Source: Chrysophaeum taylorii
Taxonomy: Eukaryota > Sar > Pelagophyceae > Pelagomonadales > Pelagomonadaceae
Assembly (NCBI GenBank): GCA_029834535.1
Contig: JAQMWT010000191.1
Span: 1 to 64,000, forward strand
Reading direction: 5' to 3'
DNA: 64,000 nt
The translations under genes were made by a program, and so were the position numbers. Below, piece after piece: positions 43,726-58,754 of the stretch; within the stretch, counting starts at the first letter, position 1, and every line of letters begins with the position of its first letter. The notes below the pieces were generated by a model, which saw only the letters and a program-made list of their open reading frames with translations, did not search any database and was not told the DNA's origin.

Positions 43726-43798
43726 ATACTAAAGATTAACTCTATGCGGGTTTTAGCGTTAGGTAGGCGTTCTCCCCGCTGATTGGTAAGAGTAACTA

Positions 43799-44121
43799 TG
43801 GCGGCACAGAAAAACCACTCCCGACCCCCTGGTGACAAAAGGGGTACTCACCGACTCGTCCTAGACCTCACTGAACGAGGAAAACACGGACTCGGGGTCG
43901 GATATGCTCGCCACACACCTTGCTCACGCTCACCAAGCCTCTCAACAAGATGGAGAGATGGTATATGAAAGCAAGAATGCTACAAGAATACTGCAAGAAT
44001 GCTTCTCACAAGAGAGAGAGGTATGATGTCACTAGGAAGCGAGGGGAAGGCGTCCCGTTGAACGGGTATTAAGCCTCGAGAAAGGAGGGTAAAGCCTTAA
44101 CGGTCAGGAGTTGCCGCCACA
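43799..44121 (-). repeat. 3' LTR of the Gypsy element
   Basis: A 323-bp direct repeat of 52407-52733, with TG...CA ends in element orientation. Confidence 0.93.
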
Positions 44122-44208: not shown

Positions 44209-45900
44209 CTACTTGTAGACACGTTCAACGACAGGTTCGGGAGCGCGTCCACTACGCAAAGTGAACGTAGGAATCAACACATCGATCTCATGCGGGGCGA
44301 AGTCGGTGACACAAGGAGTGGTACTGTTGTTGACCTTGGTCTTGTCGGTGAAGCTGCGACCGTCCACGTCCTTGTATTTTGGCTTAAGCTTGCGAGTAGA
44401 GAGATGTGAGGTAGGCTTGTAATAAGAAACCTTGTCATGGGGACCAAGATCAGCATAGAAATGCAGAGCGACTCGATCATTCACAAAATCATAGGGTTCA
44501 TAAACTTCAGCGACGTAAATCTTCTTTCGCCAATCGGACCGTTTGTTATTCGGAATCCGAAAGATAACGAACTTACCATGCTTGTAATCATCCCGAAAGG
44601 TCTCCTTGGGCTTGGGCACAGCTCGATCGACCACTGGAGAAACCATCACAGGGGTGATCTGGCTAACATGAACACAACGGCGTTCAGGAGGAGAATCAAG
44701 AGACTCAATCCTGTAAGTGACCGGGGACAAGCCTTCCAAAATACGAATGGACCGCGCCATTTCGGTCGAAGCTTGTTCTGAAGAAAAGGGGTGTAGAGCA
44801 GAACATGTGAACCTTCTTCATACTCCACATCGACATGGTCCGCATTGTAGGCGAGACGTTGTTTACGAAAAGCCTTCTCACGAGCTTCGTTCACCGTAGC
44901 GGTATAGAACTTCAGCCTCTCGCGAGCCTCTGCCACAACATCGGAGCGAGTTTTCGGCAGGCGGCGGACATCAAGATCCATAATCGTGTAATCGGCTGGC
45001 AATAAAGGCTGCCGGTTAAGACGAAGCATGAAAGGTGAGATCTGAGTTCCCGGAATAAACTTACGATTGTAGCAAAAAGCAATGTACTCCGCGAATTCGG
45101 GCCATTCCGTGATCTTGCGGTTTTGAAGGCACGCACGGAGGAAAGCCTTGACAAAGCGGTTGACCCTTTCCGCAGGATTAGCCTGAGCATGATGCGGAAT
45201 CGTGGTACTATACCGAACATTGAAGAGATGACAAAACTCTTCCATCAACTTGTTGACGACCTCTTTCCCATTGTCGGTACGAATCCTCTGAGGTATATAA
45301 CCTTTGAGTAATATATTCGCGACAAAAGACTCGAGGATTGACTCAGCAGTCTTATGGTGTAGTACGTCAAGAATCAAGAAATGAGAAAATGGATCAAAAA
45401 AGATGATCAGATATGTCTCGGGACCAGCACTGGGCAAAGGTCCGAACAAATCCATACAAAGGACGGCGCAATCACCATCATACACCGGTTGCTGAAGCAG
45501 ACCTGCTCTCTTTGGTTCAGGCGTACGAGCTTTCTTGCACACTATGCAACCAGCAATGTAAGCACCCACCTCATTAGACATGTGGGGCCACCAAAAATCG
45601 TTCAAGTATCGACTGCACTGTACTTTGACGACCCATGTGACCACCATTGAGAGGTGTGCCGTGGTACAATCGGATGATGCGCGTCCGTAAAGTTCGGGGT
45701 GCGACTATCATCGGGTGCAAGTCGGGTGCGGCACGGTAGAGAACTCCTTTCACCACTTGATAGCGATAATTGGCTCCGTACCGACGAAGAGAATGGCCCT
45801 GAGCCATGCGATAACGAATGTCCTCGCAAGTAGCATCAGTGATCTGCTCTTTGGCTATCTCTTCCAAAGTCAAATTATCCGGAATCTTGTCGATGTACTC
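44209..45900 (-). other. Gypsy integrase and C-terminal tail (fossil part)
   Basis: The zinc-binding start is seen in 'LYHGTPLNGGHMGRQSTV' and 'CIVCKKARTPEPKRAGLL'. The DDE core shows 'CMDLFGPLPS', 'IRTDNGKEVV' and 'HAQANPAERVNRFVKAFL'. The tail ('PVTYRIESLDSPPERRCVHV') matches the usual Gypsy integrase C-terminal barrel. The extra 150 residues after it have no recognised chromodomain. Confidence 0.88.
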
Positions 45901-48032
45901 TTGGTAATCATCGGCATCACGGAAAATACTAGGCTGGGTCTGCAGACGTTGCTTCTGACGTTGTTTCGTAGCATGAGACGTGACCAATTGCATCGGATCA
46001 TCGAGGTCTTCTTCTTCTTCCTCCACAGGCAACTCAGTCGTAACAAACGACAGAATGATATGGCACCCAGGTGAAGGTACTCCTTCATCATCGACAGGGC
46101 GAGGAAGTTCTTTGCACACTAGGTACGCTTGGTTCAAGGGTTCACCAAACTCGCCCGTCTCGATGACATGATCTGTAGGATTGCGAGAGAGACAGTCAGG
46201 GATACTCATTCCCGGCGACTTCCCTGGTTTGTAACCCAATTCAGGATCAAAGTTGGCGAGCCGCATCGCCCATCGAGCCAACTGCCCAGACGAGTGCTTC
46301 GCCTTTCGTAAAAACGTCAAGTTGCGATGATCCGTTTCAAGGATCGTCTTGTGACCTTCGATATAAGAGCGCAAATGCTCAAGAGACAGAATAATAACTG
46401 CCAGCAGCTCTAGCCGGCGAGGCTCATAGTTCCGCATTTCTTTCGGCACAGCTAGGCTCCAATACTCAATTACTCGTTCCTCTCGTGTCACCTTGTCGGT
46501 TTCGTCCTTGACTTCCACGAGCTGAAAAGATACGCGCCCAGACCATCCTTGGAAGCATCCGAGCGGATCTGAAAAGGAAGATCGTAGTCAGGATGATAAA
46601 CTCCGCGAGAGTCCACCAAAGCTTCGATGATCGTGTCCCATGCCTTTTGGCACTCAGGCGTCCACTCAAACTTAACGCCTTCAAGACACAATCGCCTAAG
46701 CGGCTCCACAATCTTCGAATAATTCTTCACATATCGGCGGCAATAGTTGCTCATGCCAATGAAAGATCGAATCTGGGTCTTCGGGGACGTATTAGGCAAC
46801 GTACCGGGGCATCTGCTGCAACGCTTCTAACGTCTTGGGATTCGGCTTCAAGCCTTCCGGAGTCGAAATGTGTCCCAGAAACTCGATTTCATCCTTGAGG
46901 AGGTGGAACTTCGAAGTTCGTCCACTATATCCTCGCTGCGCTAAATGGCACAACACTTCAATCAAAACTTGTAAATGTCGATGGAGTTCATCCGATCCCA
47001 TCATAATATCGTCGACAAACGCGACCAAGTCCTTATACATCCATGTGGACAAATCGCTAGCCATCTGCTTACAAAAGAGAGCTCCTGCTGTTTTTACTCC
47101 TAGAGGCAAGCGCAAGAAACTATGGGCTCCAAGTGGACTAACCATCGTAACGGCGTCCTGAGCGGCGGCGTCCAAACGTAGGTTATGATAACCCCATCGA
47201 ATATCAATGCACGTCCGCCAACGGCGCATGGCAAGAAAAGCCAAAGCATCATCTTGACGAATATTCGGCCAACTGTCATTGACCAGCTGATCATTGAGCT
47301 GACGCAAGTCAACTGCAGCACGAAAAGCATTCGACGTCCCGGCCTCTGCTCCCTTCTTAGGCAGCATCAGTACAGGGAATCCCCACGGAGAGTTCGCCGG
47401 TCGGATGACTCCATCGCGACACCACTCGGTGATCTGCTTTCTGAGACACTCGAGCTTTGCTGGCGTAACCTATAAGGCGTCATCTTGATCGGTCGTGGGT
47501 TTGCGTCTTTAAACCGTAGAGAAACCGGTGGCGAGTCCACGGGTCTCATAATCGGATCAAAAAAAGCCCACGCGTATTGCACGCAGTGGCTCAACATCGT
47601 CTTCGCATCATCATCCAGATGCGTGTTGTCGGGAATTCCCAGATCTCGAACAACCTTTTCGACTTCTTCCTTCGTCGGAATTACGATTTTCATCGCATCA
47701 TTGTCCTTGACGTGCTCGGGAGTCTGCGGTAACGGTACACCGTCCGCATCGCGCGGTGCATCCTTCCATGGCACATCGAACTTTTCTTCGTATTTGAACC
47801 TCACCTCAGGGTGGCTCTTATTGATCTTTTCACCTTTGACGCGCACATTCGGCTTGCTCCTTACTTTCGGCTCCTGTTCAGGTTCAGGATGGGGCGGAAC
47901 GTCCTTTTTTGATTGTCGGGGGGACCCAGCAGAAAAAGCATAAGCCGTCCCCGGCGCATCTGTTGGAAGCGGAAGCATAGGGACTTCTGGCGATTCCCAT
48001 TTAGTGGGATCCTGGAGATCATCTTTTGACAC
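45900..48032 (-). other. Gypsy reverse transcriptase and RNase H (fossil part)
   Basis: RT landmarks are 'RAAVDLRQLNDQLVND', 'DIRWGYHNLRLDA', 'FLRLPLGVKTAGALFCKQMA' and the catalytic 'LVAFVDDIMMGS'. RNase H follows with 'FQIRSDASKDGLGAYLF', 'RRLELLAVIILSLEHLRSYI' and 'ILETDHRNLTFLRKA'. The segment before RT (about 47460-48030) contains the usual 'YAWAFFDPIMRPVDSPPVSL' lead-in. Confidence 0.9.
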
Positions 48033-48113: not shown

Positions 48114-49208
48114 TCAAAGGATCGATCTTTCGGGCTCAACGCGGTCGGCAGGACTTCGCCACTTTGGCGGAAACCTCTGGTCACGGAGTTGTGCAGATCG
48201 ACTGCTAAAATCGCAAGAGTGTCCGGAGGGAACGACAGACGCTAAATGTTTGAACGAATCTGTCTTAGACAAGCTAGCCCAATCATGGTCCACCGGCATC
48301 GTGAGCAACTCGGCCGTCATCTCGAGAGTCAAAGGCTGAGTGTCCGAGCGATGCGGTCCCAATCGAAGAGGAACTCGCGTAACGGTGTAAGCCGTATCTG
48401 TTGCTTCTCGGGACGAGCCGAGATTATTCAGCTGGAGCAGGTGGCGTTCATGAGCATAACCTAAAGCTGCAGCAAATTCTTGTTGCATGTTCACTCATGT
48501 CTTCGGAGCCTCTTGCAAGTGCAGTGGGTGACTGGAAACCAACAATCGCACGCGAGAGCTCATCAGAGTGGGCGTGATATCATGTAAATTGACGACGTAC
48601 ACGTAAGGGTGTAAACGCGCTATATAACAAATGATGGACGCCTCCTGTTCAATCAGCCACATCATGAAGCCAGCCATTATGCACAGCTTCATCGTCCAGT
48701 TAGTGGCCGTAACACCCCTGCCAACATCTCTGGATGTCAAGTTGCAGAGTGCTGAATGAACGCAGGGTGGAGACGCTATACACATCGACGATGACCATTC
48801 CGCTTCAGGCAAATAAGCCTTGATCAATCGGAGGGTCGAGTCATATCGTCCGCAGAGCGTGTGCTGAACCACAGGTATCTTCGGAAAATTCTTCTGATGA
48901 ACCTTGTTGGCAGCTGTTGAAGAGTCAAGAGCAAGGACGACTCGAAACGACGTCCCGCACAACTCGTTCGCTCGTTGCAGTCCTAAAGTACTTCCTCCGG
49001 CGCCGCTAAAGAGCATCACAACCTTGCGATACGTGATCGGCACCCAGTGGACCTTTTCAAACCTTCGGCGAATCTCGCCTTCTGTAACTTCTCGGCATTT
49101 CTTTTCCTCCTCGTCAGTTCGTCGGTCGAAATCGTCGTTACCGAGCGATTCTTGACGAGAATTCTTCTTCTTATCGGCAGAAGGAGACGCCTTCTGCACT
49201 GAGCTCAA
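48114..49208 (-). other. C5-cytosine DNA methyltransferase domain inside the Gypsy element (fossil part)
   Basis: Motif I is 'VVMLFSGAGGSTLGLQRA', motif II the acidic-ended strand 'FRVVLALDSSTAANKVH', and motif IV with the catalytic cysteine 'CIASPPCVHSALCN'. A QxRxR-like motif VIII is suggested by 'LMSSRVRLLVSSHPLH', and motif IX/X-like sequence by 'PLTLEMTAELLTMPVDHDW' and 'HLASVVPSGHSC'. The order and spacing fit a Dnmt/Dcm catalytic domain (Pfam DNA_methylase). The domain lies between protease and RT in the same orientation, so it belongs to the element rather than to a host gene split by it. The upstream part is a charged linker. Confidence 0.82.
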
Positions 49209-50734
49209 AGCATCGGTTCGGGAGCCGCATCGCCTTGAGTCAGATGGCTTGCGACCGAAACAGTGAATGATAGGTTAGCCTTGTTAGATTCGGCTTCACC
49301 ATCCTTCGTTAAATCGTCGACCGTCTCAGCATTCAGCTCGTCATCAAAACGAACAATATCGCCCAAAGCGAGAACTTCACCTTGAGTAATCACGGTCGGC
49401 ACATCCTGGGTAGAGGATATCGCCACTCGAGCTGCGAACTTATCATGATCCTCAGGAGAAGAACACATTCCATCGACTACCCCGAGTTGCTCGTACCCAG
49501 AGGACGTAGCAACGAAAACATGCCCGGATTCCATGGGCTCTGAAAGAGCGACTGGCACGCAGTAGGTGCGCCCAGGCTCGACCTTCATCGTGCGCGCAGC
49601 ATAGGCTATCACTTCATAGGCATCGCTGTTCGAACTTTGAGAAGGCGTAACTGGAGGGACTCCCCAAGTCGTCGAAGCTCCCGCTCGTTTCGGCGGTGGA
49701 CGCTGGAGGTCTTCAGTCTTGCACAAGCGAGCGTAGACTCGGTTCTCAGCTGTGCTCAGGCTCTTTTGCATCGCATGGTGCTGTTGCCCATAAACCTGAA
49801 CTACCACGGGGTTGCGCTCGTCATAAGTTGTTCTGAACGTCAAAATCGGAGAATCGACTCGTCGATCCTGCACCTTTAACTTCTTGCGCCGATAAGCGAC
49901 TTGTGTGCGGAGAAACGCAATGCGATTTCGCGGGTAGTCCACTATGGCTCCCAACACCCGAATATCGCGCGCTGCCAGCAAAAATATATGATTAGTATCG
50001 GCAACAATAGCAACAACTGGAACGGCCACGTCGTCCGCAAGCGCAATCCGCAATGCGACCCATTTGTGGATAGTCGTCTTATTCAATCCTGACCCGTACA
50101 GGGTGCGCTCGACTGGAAGATCGCCCCGGTCAAGGATGATACTATCCTTTGCCAGTTTTTCGACCATCCCACGACAAATATAGGAGACATCAGCTATTCC
50201 ATCCACGCCTAAAGTCGTTGCGAACTCCGGCCCGTCTCGTCGTCTATAAATATGACCAACTATAAACGTAAGTGTACCAGGGTCTAGACAACCGATGGTG
50301 ATAAGGCTTTGCTCCATTTCCCCCCCATCGCTCGGCGAAAGTGCAGTGTGATGACATCGTATCTCCGGTTTCGCATCGCCCTGCATCTGCATCGTCACCG
50401 CTGCCATATCTGGCGTTCCACATCTCGCCTCTGAATCTATATTGACGCTCGCCGCTTCGGGTGCTTCCTCATTCCCCAGTTTCGCTGACAACAAACTCTG
50501 ACACTTCTCAATCGGAGGCACATATATTTCCTCCTTTATCTCTTCTGGCAATCGTCGTTTCTCGTCCATCAAATCGGACATTCCCGTCAACTTCTCCTCC
50601 ATCGGCGCCGCTGTGGTCTGCTCTGCTGCGACCAAAACTGTATCGGCTAAAACATCGGCTAAAACGGTCTCAACATCGGCTAAAACGGTCTCGGGGGGCC
50701 CCGTAGGAAAAGAAGACGTCGGCCCCGACGTCAA
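49205..50734 (-). other. Gypsy protease-containing segment (fossil part)
   Basis: A retropepsin-like stretch reads 'LGVDGIADVSYICRGMVEKL', then 'LNKTTIHKWVALRIALADDV' and 'HIFLLAARDIRVLGAIVDYP'. It matches the D-x-G...flap...ILGxD layout of element proteases loosely. The rest is acidic linker. Confidence 0.6.
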
Positions 50735-50753: not shown

Positions 50754-51968
50754 TCATCGTGAACTGCCCTGCAAGACATGCACATTGACGAATGGGGGGG
50801 ACACTGGAACCTGCGGCATGGGTTCGTCGGTCTCCGAATCTGAGTCTTCCCAGTAGTACGGAGAATCCAAAGTAGCATCTGATATTGCTTCCACATACGA
50901 TGTAGAAGGCCACCGAACGATCCGAGCGTTGGTGGTATTTTGCTCCTGTTGCAAACGATGGCTGCTCGTCACAGCGACATCGGCAACATCATCGGAGACT
51001 CGGGCGGGGCGCGCCGTCGGGTAAAAGACAACTCCCGACGATGGCGGCGCGTCGCATAAAAAGATTGGAACGCAAAATTTCCGCTCGAATGTCCCGAACT
51101 ATCCTGATATCGGCCTCCGTCATATTCGTCATCGTGATGTCGATGACGTCGGCGCCGGCGCGAATTGCGACTATAGCTCCGGCTATGGCGGCGACGGCGG
51201 GGACTCGGGCTTGTTTGAGGAGTATTGGCCTTTCGATCAGGGCTCTTGCTTCGATGTCGGCGCGACGATCGTCTAGAAGGTGATCGTCCGTCTCGCTGTC
51301 GTGTAGAAGACGACTTGCTATCCTTGATGCCTCTGACCTCGCTCACCATGGTCGCCATTGTGGTTCCAAGATCGGTGAGGGCCGGTTGAATTTCATTAGA
51401 AGGCTCCGATCCGCGCGTGGCGTTCGCATGAGATGCATCATCAGGCTTCTCCCAATCGGAGCGCGATATGGGTTGCTTCTTCTGCTTACCAATACGCTTC
51501 CACATCGCACAGTAATAACGATCCGGATCGCGGTTGCAAACCACGCGATTTCCGTGTTCATCTTCATCATGGGTGGTCCAGAAGAACCCACAGTGCGGGC
51601 ACGTTCTCTTGCCCCACAAAAAATGATCTCGTAAGATCAGCGGATCCGTATTCCCAAACGGTTTATCCGCATCTTGCTGGCAAAACGCTCAGCTAATCGT
51701 TCATTTTCGCGACGTCTCTGCTCGAGGTCTTCACGAAAAGTCGACATCGGGCTGCAGATCTGCGCCCAATAGTAACACGCTCGCCACGGTCCGGAGTCGT
51801 TGGACTCAACGGCGAAGAAATGGCAGTATCCGGAGGCACGTCAGGGGGCACGTCAGCAACGTCGACTGCCTCGGCCTCTCTTGATTCACCTTCCTCGCGG
51901 CCTATCTCAGGGGCGGCGGGAAGAACTGGAGGAGATTCTTCCTCACGCACGTCTGCGCTTATATCCAT
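50754..51968 (-). other. Gypsy gag-like region (fossil part)
   Basis: Contains a Cys/His cluster ('CPHCGFFWTTHDEDEHGNR', then further Cys) and a long Ser-Arg-rich stretch ('RRSSRRHRSKSPDRKA'), suited to nucleic-acid binding. The position just after the 5' LTR leader supports gag. No classical capsid motif is recognised. Confidence 0.5.
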
Positions 51969-52406
51969 ACTGCATCAAAATATCGATCAGGAACCTCGAA
52001 ATACGTGCGGATCCGATCACTCGAAGTCATGCACGTTGATTCCAACAACGCTATCTGTCGCTGTAAAAACAGCACTCGCGGAATTCCAATCCGCTGGCAA
52101 TTCAAAAATGCCCGTGGGTAGCGATCCCACTCGCCAACAGCTTCCGCCGTTCAGCTATACCAAAATCAAGTCCCGGGAGAATGCGCTGCGATTTCCAACT
52201 CGCACGCGTGTTCGTCGTCACTCGGATTACACGAACACAAACAACGTTCGCGTATATTTATTCTCAACGCAAACCTGTCCACTGGAACTCCGCGTGCTTG
52301 ATCAGGGCACACGTACAAACCCGGACCACGTAATAACAATACGTACGGCAGCACCCGCTCGTCGGCGACCGATGTGGTCGCACGATCTCATATCCTCCAC
52401 CACGTA

Positions 52407-52733
52407 TGGCGGCACAGAAAAACCACTCCCGACCCCCGGGTGACAAAGGGGGTACTCACCGACTCGTCCTAGACCTCACTGAACGAGGAAAACACGGACT
52501 CGGGGTCGGACATGCTCGCCACACACCTTGCTCACGCTCACCAAGCCTCTCAACAAGATGGAGAGATGGTATATGATAGCAAGAATGCTACAAGAATGCT
52601 GCAAGAATGCTTCTCACAAGAGAGAGAGGTATGATGATGTCACTAGGAAAAGGTAGGGAAAAGCGTCCCGTTGAACGGGTATTGAGCTTTAAGAAAGGAG
52701 GGTAAATTTTAACGGTCAGGAGTTGCCACCACA
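52407..52733 (-). repeat. 5' LTR of the Gypsy element
   Basis: A 327-bp direct repeat of 43799-44121. The right side continues into a 45-bp sequence also present near 34137. Confidence 0.93.
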
Positions 52734-55828: not shown

Positions 55829-58754
55829 ATGACGCGCGTGTACGACTGGGCGCTGAGGCGCGGTTTTTCCGCGTACGCGACAGACGTCGCCGAGGCCGCC
55901 GACTCGATGTCGGATCTTTTTTCCGCCACCTCGGACGATCTCGACGCGCTCACGTGCGTCGTACTCGTGGTTCCCTTGATGTCTGTCTGTCTTTCCCCGC
56001 AGGCAAGACTGGAAGAATCTGACGCGGAAGCGATTCCTCAGAGAGCTCAAGGAAATTTCCGCGTCGTCCTTCGAGATGGCCGACGCTGTCACGCAGACCC
56101 CCGGCGTTACGGCCCACGTCGAGCAGGTCCGGGCGCCCTCCGCGCCGGACGCCGCGACGCGAGTTGCCGCGCCGACCGCTAACGCCAAAGCCCAAGCCCA
56201 GGTGCGCGCGGAACTGACGCGGAAGCGATTCCTCAGAGAGCTCAAGGAAATTTCCGCGTCGTCCTTCGAGATGGCCGACGCTGTCACGCAGACCCCGGCG
56301 TTACGGCCCACGTCGAGCAGGTCCGGGCGCCCTCCGCGCCGGACGCCGCGACGCGAGTTGCCGCGCCGACCGCTAACGCCAAAGCCCAAGCCCAGGTGCG
56401 CGCGGAACTGACGCGGAAGCGATTCCTCAGAGAGCTCAAGGAAATTTCCGCGTCGTCCTTCGAGATGGCCGACGCTGTCACGCAGACCCCCGGCGTTACG
56501 GCCCACGTCGAGCAGGTCCGGGCGCCCTCCGCGCCGGACGCCGCGACGCGAGTTGCCGCGCCGACCGCTAACGCCAAAGCCCAAGCCCAGGTGCGCGCGG
56601 AACTCGCGCACGCCGAGACTCCATTCGAGCGCGTTGCGGTTGTGGCCGCGGAGACGCGGTTTGCTGCTACTGAGACAGCTCACGCCGAGACACAAATGAT
56701 GGGTGTCGAGGTGGCGGTGGCCGGGACGCAAGCGGCGGCGTTAATGATTGACGCCGAGTCGCAGTTTGAAGAAGAACAGCCTACGGCGGTTGAGGAGGTC
56801 GCGGTGGATGCGACGCAAGCTAGTGTTCCCACAGCTCACGCGGCGACTCAAGCGGCGGTGAGTGTCGTCGAGGTGGCGGTGGCCGGGACGCGAGCGGCCG
56901 CGTTGATGCTTGACGCCGAGTCGCAGTTTGAAGAAGAACAGCCTACGGCGGTTGAGGAGGTCGCGGTGGATGCGACGCAAGCTAGTGTTCCCACAGCTCA
57001 CGCGGCGACTCAAGCGGCGGTGAGTGTCGTCGAGGTGGCGGTGGCCGGGACGCGAGCGGCCGCGTTGATGCTTGACGCCGAGTCGCAGTTTGAAGAAGAA
57101 CAGCCTGCGGCGGTTGAGGAGGTCGCGGTGGATGCGACGCAAGCTAGTGTTCCCACAGCTCACGCCGAGACACAAATGATGGGTGTCGAGGTGGCGGTGG
57201 CCGGGACGCAAGCGGCCGCGTTGATGATTGACGCCGAGGCGCAGTTTGAAGAAGAACAGCCTGCGGCGGTCGAGGAGGTCGCGGCGGATACGACTCAAGC
57301 TGGGACCGACACTGCTCAAGCCGAAACTCGCGCCGGGATGGTCGTGGAGACCACAGATGCCGAGATACAAGTGGACGGAGCTCCGACGACTAGCGCCGAG
57401 GCGCTCCCGTCCGCGCACCCCGAGACCCAAGTCGAGCCTATTGTCGTCGAGCCCTCGGCGACGTCGGAGCAAGTTGGTGCCGACGCGGTTCACCCAGAAA
57501 CACAGATCGGAATGGTTGCAGCACTTGGCAAGCAGCAAGGTGCCATACCAACCGCCGAGGCGCGCGCGGAAACTGTGTTTGAGAGATTAGCTAAAGTCGT
57601 TGGAACGCGCGCGAGCTCGCCAATAACCACTCGCGAGAAGCAGCCTATCGCGGCCGGAGCAGCGACGAGCGTCGAGCCCGGTATGGCGGAGACTGCAGCG
57701 ACGGCCGGCGAAATAAAAAGCGGCACGATCCGTGCCGACGCGCGAAATGTTGTCGGGGCGGACGAGACCCGAGATGCCGAGAGGCCCCGAGCAGCGCGAG
57801 CCGAGACCTTGTTAGAGGTGCGCGAATCTGTCGTTCGTCGTAACTAGGGTCCAGGTGGCGCCGAAACTGGGTGGAACGCAGGCCGACGCGGTTACGGCGG
57901 TGACCGCGCCGAGCAGCGCGGCCGCGGCAGCCCTCGACGACGCTCGGGCCGCCGGCGACGCGCCGCTCGACCGCGTCGAGTCAGCTTCGGAGTCTCGAGG
58001 ATCTCACGAACGGATCCGCGGTAACAAGCGAGCCGATTTTCTCGCGCGCATGGAACGCGACGGGTGGGAGTTCAGAAAGGTCCCGCGCGCGCACAATCGA
58101 AAAATCGCCGACTTGTACTACGTCAAGGGCGACGTCGCGCTCAAGTCGCTGGCGAGCGTCGCGAAGCAGCACTACCCAGAAATGTCCGAGGAGCTCCTAG
58201 TTTCGCGCACGCAGAAGAAGCGCGAGTTCTCTTATTCTGACGCGTTTGCTCAGATCATCGCCGAGGGCGATGGCCGGAAGAGGAGCAAGCCGCGCCGTTT
58301 CAATCCCGGAACCGCGACCAACACGAAAAGTTGGACCGACGACGAGGTCGCGGCGGTGACGCCGGGAGAGAAGAAAGAGCCGAAGAGACAGCGCTCCGAG
58401 CCCCCGAAGGCGTCTCGCGAGCGCGCGGCGGAGATGGCCAAGAAGCAGCGCGTCAAGAAGGAGCCCGGCGTTGTTGTTGTCGCCGCGGCCAAGGAGGACC
58501 CCGACCTCGTCCGGCTCAAAAAGCTGTATTTGCACAAGAAGTTCACGGACGCCGAGTGGGGGTCAGACTACCTCGTTTGCGAAGTGGTCTTCTCGCAGCA
58601 GTTCGAGGCCTGGTGTGCCGCCGCTCGCCGCTACGACCGCGAGCGCAACGCCCCTCCCGACGACGGCCGATACCGGTACTACTCTCTCGGCAACGACGCG
58701 GACTTGATGGAAATGGATCGGATGATCCAGCTCTACGCCGACGCCTTGAGATGA
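55829..58754 (+). CDS. Long tandem-repeat protein, unknown function, with short introns
   Basis: Proposed exons are 55829-55953, 56003-57817 and 57855-58754. The first intron is 49 bp (GTGCGT...CCGCAG), the second only 37 bp (GTGCGC...TCCAG). Exon 1 encodes 'RVYDWALRRGFSAYATDVAE'. Exon 2 holds three copies of a 65-residue unit ('LTRKRFLRELKEISASSFEM' onward), then about four of a 54-residue unit ('AESQFEEEQPTAVEEVAVDA'), then acidic Ala/Thr-rich sequence. Exon 3 encodes a basic domain ('NKRADFLARMERDGWEFRKV') and an end rich in Lys and Tyr ('KLYLHKKFTDAEWGSDYLVC'). The second 65-residue copy is one base short (194 bp), which breaks the frame; it may be a real lesion or an assembly error. No family is recognised. 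The exact start is uncertain. Confidence 0.55.
56019..56602 (+). repeat. Three tandem copies of a 195-bp (65-codon) unit
   Basis: Copies start at 56019, 56214 and 56408. They are almost identical; the middle one is 194 bp because it has one C fewer in a C-run. Confidence 0.92.
56702..57300 (+). repeat. About four tandem copies of a 162-bp (54-codon) unit
   Basis: The phrase 'GTCGAGGTGGCGGTGGCCGG' recurs with a 162-bp period; the second and third copies are nearly identical. The outer copies are more diverged. Confidence 0.88.

Follow-up and report, generated by a model that had tools for sequence, protein, structure and literature searches.

A DNA methyltransferase (DNMT) is shown here to be a regular, selectively maintained part of two families of Ty3/Gypsy retrotransposons in the genome of Chrysophaeum taylorii. 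The window, a stretch of 64,000 nucleotides (contig JAQMWT010000191.1, positions 1 to 64,000), contains a decayed copy of one of them, an old, high-copy family that carries the DNMT within Pol in the order protease-like part, DNMT, reverse transcriptase (RT).

The Gypsy element of the window and its copies

On the minus strand of the window lies a Ty3/Gypsy element bounded by two direct long terminal repeats (LTRs), which are identical at 308 of 330 aligned positions (93%, 6 gaps; Table 1). Pfam analysis of the open reading frames (ORFs) of the window gave the domain order DNMT, RT, RNase H, integrase, all on the minus strand, confirming the claim of an earlier note on this DNA that a Gypsy element within matching LTRs has a DNMT ahead of RT. 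The order RT, RNase H, integrase, which is that of a Gypsy-type Pol, is present in the window element and in another copy, L041. Comparison of the flanks of the window copy revealed no evident target-site duplication; such duplications are commonly missing in old or recombined copies. The G+C content of the element (0.50-0.54 in four 2-kb bins from position 44001) is below that of its surroundings. At a distance of 3.3 kb from the element, two adjoining arrays of long direct repeats with periods of about 195 and 160 nt occupy positions 56019-57340, and the outer copies of the first array are 99% identical.

Table 1. Features of the Ty3/Gypsy element in the window.
Feature	Position	Strand	Evidence
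3' LTR	43797..44121	-	93% identity with 52405-52733
Integrase: H2C2 zinc domain and rve core	44646..45647	-	Pfam PF00665 E=3.4e-11, PF17921 E=6.2e-6
RNase H	45574..46518	-	Pfam PF17917 (RT_RNaseH) E=2e-17
Reverse transcriptase	46792..47367	-	Pfam PF00078 (RVT_1) E=1.2e-14
Linker ORF, DNMT-RT interval	47367..48032	-	ORF; conserved in L046-L049, partly in the second Gypsy family
Predicted C5-cytosine DNA methyltransferase core, motifs I, II, IV, VI-like, VIII, IX/X	about 48183..49031	-	PF00145, open copies, full-length profile match
237-aa ORF, N-terminal part of the DNMT domain	48495..49208	-	PF00145 E=1.5e-4
ORF 5' of the DNMT, retropepsin-like stretch	49205..50734	-	motif recognised by eye
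Gag-like ORF	50969..51619	-	position only
5' LTR	52405..52733	-	93% identity with 43797-44121

The core boundary at position 48183 was set by alignment to L041. No convincing Pfam match was obtained for the two ORFs upstream of the DNMT; the nearer one is a putative protease, judged retropepsin-like from a motif recognised by eye on which Pfam is silent. The DNMT itself is open from 48498 to 49031, meets a stop codon at 48495-48497, resumes in the same frame and is then frameshifted near its 3' end, and the Pol frames of this copy are split. Since stop and frameshift cut the DNMT domain, the window copy is dead. The DNMT that had been placed at 48114-49208 is indeed present there, but that span is interrupted by both lesions.

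A search of the genome (70.8 Mb) with the DNMT piece of the window yielded at least 150 matches (150 scored of 885 candidates), which form one group of about 82-98% identity and another of about 74-80%. We inspected 32 copies, a non-random sample consisting of the 30 best matches and two copies picked for their long frames. The 283-residue DNMT core is open in 22 of them; SPPC and RVRLL are found in all 32 and FSGAGG in 31. In L041 (contig C5), DNMT, RT, RNase H and integrase are encoded within one open frame of 3,063 codons.

Among the 150 RT places listed (the best 150 of 948 candidates), 68 are preceded, in the same orientation, by a DNMT from the list of DNMT matches; a look for further copies with this order had been suggested in the earlier note. 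In 66 of these pairs the two domains lie 1,791-1,859 nt apart, with about 1,840 nt as the typical distance. The other 82 RT places, apparently DNMT-free when compared with a DNMT list of 150 scored out of 885 candidates, were considered as close relatives lacking the domain. This was rejected, since all 18 loci fetched from them (four by choice and 14 at a fixed step of six, entries 1 to 79) hold DNMT sequence. The domain is thus a fixed part of the family, as the earlier note had proposed.

The DNMT is uninterrupted in four of these 18 loci (L049, L056, L063 and L064) and broken or truncated in 14, despite an RT at least 92% identical to that of the window. Only 33 DNMT residues are left in L055 (contig C100, RT 100% identical to the window RT) and 28 in L061 (contig C119, RT 95% identical), and as these two loci illustrate, the DNMT may be dispensable for some copies. 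L055 and L061 are possibly DNMT-free derivatives that are still spreading. No Gypsy family free of the DNMT was found, with three loci inspected outside the family of the window. L048, considered as a third family at 43% identity, was rejected because its alignment shows a frameshifted copy.

The methyltransferase domain of two Gypsy families

A match to PF00145 had been predicted for the DNMT part, and it is found for the window at 21.8 bits, slightly below the cut-off of 22, and for all 22 open copies (best E=6.7e-7); where its range is shown (window and L041), it is confined to motifs I-II. L041 also matches TIGR00675 (E=0.001, far below the cut-off of that model) and two PHROG DNA-methyltransferase profiles (E=1e-6 and 2e-6). 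When a profile of the window family was aligned with a set of six known C5-methyltransferases, made up of five phage enzymes and the host Dnmt2, the score was 56.5; 60 column-permuted controls did not exceed 19.5. Confidence in this alignment is confined to motif I-II, and a forced full-length alignment brings PPC and the IX-X region into register. A single-sequence fold model of the DNMT piece of the window (178 residues) reached a pLDDT of 38.

A second Gypsy family, represented by three loci (L069-L071), was reached via other RTs in a PF00078 search. Its RT is 57-63% identical to that of the window family, and a DNMT with 40-42% identity is located at the same place in all three loci, in L071 with a stop inside the domain. 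Because so distant a family keeps a related DNMT in the same position, the Gypsy capture is old. At least 144 genomic matches to the DNMT of the second family were found (136 scored of 887 candidates). L069 and L070 match PF00145 (E values 1e-9 and 4.9e-9) in two separate stretches each; the best stretch (257-321/324 in L069) corresponds to the C-terminal motifs IX-X, which Pfam recognises in both loci. With the second family included, the profile scored 80.7 over 260 columns (60 permuted controls at most 21.4); scores of the two-family alignment against known enzymes were 80.7-91.5 over 250-260 columns, the permuted maximum of 21.4 being that for the 80.7 set.

Invariant across both families (four-sequence alignment, 41-42% identity) are FxGxGG, ALD, ASPPC, EQE and RxRLL, and the catalytic PC of motif IV aligns with the PC of the known enzymes. 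For motifs VIII, IX and X, the invariant RxR and the C-terminal PF00145 stretch of the second family are in agreement with the profile alignment. Canonical motif VI is ENV (Glu-Asn-Val), and canonical motif X contains Gly-Asn. In the Gypsy DNMTs, EQE is found near the expected motif VI site, where the profile alignment leaves the register loose and the Glu is kept in both families, and motif X departs from the canonical Gly-Asn. Judged by these comparisons, the Gypsy domain is a C5-methyltransferase over its full length. It is probably catalytically active; activity may be lost or changed, since motif VI reads EQE for ENV and motif X has an altered Gly-Asn.

The class of the enzyme was approached with solved structures and reference profiles. 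For the window-family profile, Dnmt2 ranked first, weakly and in the motif I-II region only (1g55, E=0.072), and likewise for L041 alone; for the two-family alignment, entries named Cytosine-specific methyltransferase came first, again weakly (8yf3, E=0.078; 3g7u, E=0.42). No Dnmt3 chain was present among the matches at E<=5 for the window-family profile and at E<=1 for L041 and the two-family alignment. The two-family profile scored 88.8 with the five phage enzymes and 33.0 with the host Dnmt2, an uneven comparison of a five-sequence profile with a single sequence. The host Dnmt5, also a single sequence, reached 16.7 and 15.3 versus 51-89 for the phage enzymes, which does not point to the Dnmt5 class; the permuted controls reaching 19-22 beside these Dnmt5 scores were run against other reference sets. 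The protein collection yielded no relatives for the window ORF, the DNMT-RT piece scored on its DNMT or the two-family alignment, in a search of proteins with 0.55-1.75 of the query length in which the best 7,993 (DNMT-RT piece) and 7,999 (two-family) candidates were scored. The viral contigs and phages searched with the Gypsy DNMTs contained no relatives either.

Substitution rates were compared between copies. For the DNMT core, dN/dS is 0.049-0.066 in 20 copies versus L041 (0.055 between subfamilies), at a dS between subfamilies of 1.3-2.1 (median 2.07 versus L041) that is near saturation. The median dN/dS is 0.136 for 190 pairs within the subfamily of the window, where dS is small (0.067); L041 versus L042 gave 0.174 and the second Gypsy family 0.055 (one pair, dS 1.7). 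Between the window and L041, dN/dS is 0.082 for the DNMT, 0.017 for RT and 0.111 for RNase H (integrase dS was not computable); constraint on the DNMT is thus weaker than on RT and close to that on RNase H. The DNMT copies are under purifying selection, and that this is a captured DNMT maintained by selection appears almost certain.

Host methyltransferases and a Copia family with a different DNMT

A profile search of the genome with PF00145 returned at least 57 places (123 of 474 candidates scored). Ten were fetched, namely the host Dnmt2 (L001), a Dnmt5-type gene (L002) and eight loci that all match a Ty1/Copia element. Altogether, 41 of the 57 places belong to Copia (by overlap with the Copia-DNMT list, or fetched) and two are host genes; the other 14, outside the Copia list, could be more Copia copies or further host DNMTs.

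The host Dnmt2 gene (L001:1501-2478) is uninterrupted in frame and matches PDB 1g55 with E=7.7e-39; close prokaryotic relatives of it were not found in genome contigs. The Dnmt5-type gene (L044:3668-9799, which contains L002) combines PF00145 with an SNF2-related domain in one open frame of 2,044 codons that reaches the end of the stretch. It matches PDB 7r76 (E=1.9e-123), an entry named DNA repair protein Rad8 that we take to be Cryptococcus Dnmt5. According to the accessible text of PMC10538959, Dnmt5 acts in maintenance in Cryptococcus and occurs widely in stramenopiles. Neither Dnmt1 nor Dnmt3 was seen in the host by exon-by-exon scoring, with 43 of the at least 57 PF00145 places classified.

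Contig C697, presumably the plastid, carries rbcL, the best solved relatives of which are 7yk5, 5mz2, 5n9z and 5oya, taken by us to be diatom enzymes. Since rbcL is closest to these, the plastid is of the red type and the host probably an ochrophyte alga, in line with the stramenopile affinity suggested before. On contig C696 there are eight matches to RVT_1, with scores of 56-105 bits, which may represent organellar group II introns.

The Copia family with a DNMT (L043:3097-8952 on contig C96, also L003-L010) has a high copy number, with at least 88 genomic matches to its DNMT (79 scored of 719 candidates). In L043, the DNMT and RVT_2 share one frame of 1,952 codons, which also gives a weak match to rve (E=0.003). 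The DNMT motifs TLPC, ENV and TRY occur in order, motif I is degenerate, and all three open copies match PF00145. Against the six enzymes the Copia DNMT scored 57.2 (permuted maximum 22.4); separately, it scored 62.8 with the five phage enzymes, 17.5 with the host Dnmt2 and 14.2 with the host Dnmt5. Three pairs gave dN/dS values of 0.10-0.14. The genome is rich in Copia elements (an RVT_2 search gave 1,670 candidates, of which the best 150 were scored), and the two elements fetched from the RVT_2 list contain neither DNMT.

The Copia and Gypsy DNMT profiles show no similarity to each other (18.1 and 13.1, within the reach of permuted controls against the enzymes), and therefore two separate captures are the simplest reading, with a single capture followed by very deep divergence as a possible alternative. 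Both DNMTs follow a protease-like region and precede the first core enzyme, which is RT in Gypsy and integrase in Copia. The earlier note had described a single capture, that by Gypsy, which stands; it had missed that a further Gypsy family and a Copia family also carry DNMTs.

Possible roles and relation to known systems

DNA methylation is a classic host weapon against transposons, and a transposon that carries it is a paradox. As a domain of Pol, the DNMT would be synthesised and enter the particle along with RT and integrase. From this layout, the packaged enzyme could be expected to methylate the new cDNA of the element or its freshly inserted copies, and a de novo mark set once in this way might be copied on by the Dnmt5-type maintenance enzyme of the host. 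The presence of such a host enzyme makes this seed-and-maintain idea directly testable. The likely benefit would be that new DNA passes as self, or that the element, by moderating its own expression, becomes tolerable to the host. A captured, selected DNMT in Gypsy Pol that would mark the element's own DNA is the best explanation of the whole, and we hold it with moderate confidence; that methylation of own cDNA or own copies is the main role is proposed more tentatively. In a yeast assay, SymbioDIRS-Dnmt3 domains conferred de novo CG methylation, and no methylation was obtained with the domains of KnitGypsy and SymbioLINE, an outcome termed inconclusive by the authors, according to the part of that paper available (PMC5890265).

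CpG observed/expected is 1.32 in the host stretch and on average 1.18 in 30 Gypsy loci. The window LTRs have values of 0.72-0.77 with GpC equally low, and CpG sites show no significant excess of transitions (12/116 versus 23/315, p=0.32). With CpG above 1, GpC in the LTRs as low as CpG and unenriched CpG transitions, there is no clear deamination footprint of heavy CG methylation.

Could the domain instead methylate RNA in the manner of Dnmt2, for example the genomic RNA of the element or its tRNA primer? Gypsy elements prime with tRNA, and Dnmt2 is the first, weak hit among solved structures for the window-family profile. Against this, the Cytosine-specific methyltransferase entries take the first ranks once the second family is included, also weakly, the five phage enzymes outscore the host Dnmt2 in the uneven comparison given above, and by eye the Dnmt2-type stretch after PPC is not retained in the Gypsy DNMT, which makes an RNA methyltransferase quite improbable. 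Loss of catalysis, with the domain serving Pol structurally or by binding DNA or SAM, would fit the altered motifs VI and X of the Gypsy families and the degenerate motif I of Copia. We regard it as unlikely, given that the catalytic PPC is retained in all 32 Gypsy copies inspected and in the second family, together with FxGxGG and the acidic residue of ALD.

A use as a weapon, in which rival elements or viral DNA would be silenced through methylation by the element, accords with the anti-viral role argued for transposon-borne methylases (available text of PMC6338049) and with giant-virus insertions that carry 5mC in other protists (available text of PMC12344493). No sign of targeting was seen here, and Copia elements are abundant, with both DNMTs absent from the two fetched from the RVT_2 list; a role against rivals thus seems rather doubtful. 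Insertion of a host DNMT gene by chance into one element copy is rejected by the copy number (at least 150 genome matches, of 885 candidates), the constant DNMT-RT spacing and the second Gypsy family with the same layout, and its likelihood is negligible.

The preferred reading, a selected DNMT that marks the element's own DNA, can be extended to the cell as a whole. Host methylation would then be maintenance-only through Dnmt5, the retrotransposons would supply the cell's de novo methyltransferase, and Gypsy and Copia would each have acquired an unrelated DNMT, independently and at one and the same position in Pol, since an element that marks its own cDNA is tolerated and survives longer than one that leaves it unmarked. 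This extension is speculative and, taken in full, unlikely to hold. That one genome has two different DNMTs, each in another superfamily of retrotransposons, and that the domain persisted as its sequence drifted to 40% identity, argues for such captures being adaptive and recurrent.

DNMTs borne by retrotransposons form a known group, defined by de Mendoza 2018 (PMC5890265, seen in part), and the elements described here agree with it in having the DNMT in the coding frame of many copies and under purifying selection. Worked-out cases found in print come from dinoflagellates and streptophytes (PMC5890265, PMC12344493, as far as their text is available). Titles and abstract beginnings, covering few subscription journals and no preprints, contained no stramenopile case and nothing on captured DNMTs for Aureococcus or pelagophytes. 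DAM- and DCM-encoding Ty3/Gypsy and DIRS elements are said to occur in stramenopiles among others (PMC6338049); the accessible text of that source lumps adenine and cytosine enzymes as well as both clades, and names no stramenopile Gypsy element with a cytosine enzyme.

A close counterpart is KnitGypsy-Dnmt3 of Klebsormidium nitens, which differs in several respects according to the available text (PMC5890265). Its enzyme is of the Dnmt3 class, whereas here no Dnmt3 chain is found among the solved-structure matches and the motifs are ASPPC and FSGAGG. Its repeats are arranged as in DIRS, unlike the two direct LTRs of the window element, its host is a charophyte and not an ochrophyte-like alga, and its copies are fewer than in Symbiodinium, compared with at least 150 here (of 885 candidates). 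Symbiodinium, with SymbioDIRS-Dnmt3 and SymbioLINE-Dnmt, likewise has hundreds of DNMTs inside retrotransposons and several element classes in one genome, and in SymbioDIRS the DNMT is part of the DIRS Pol, in an ORF common with RT (PMC5890265, same part). Those elements are DIRS and LINE, whereas those of Chrysophaeum taylorii are LTR elements of the Gypsy and Copia types.

DNMT3 members in LTR Copia and DIRS elements are mentioned, with the 2018 paper cited for streptophytes and dinoflagellates, and no stramenopile is named in the accessible text (PMC12344493). The Copia DNMT of that source is described as a DNMT3, while the one found here scores best with the five phage enzymes (62.8; references phage, Dnmt2 and Dnmt5). 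An orchid Ty3/Gypsy element with an AlkB m6A demethylase has likewise captured a nucleic-acid modifying enzyme; unlike the DNMT described here, it is an RNA demethylase in an additional ORF (PMC9289625, available part). The DNMTs of Chrysophaeum taylorii look like a new lineage of retrotransposon DNMTs with two captures in one genome, likely independent of the dinoflagellate and charophyte captures.
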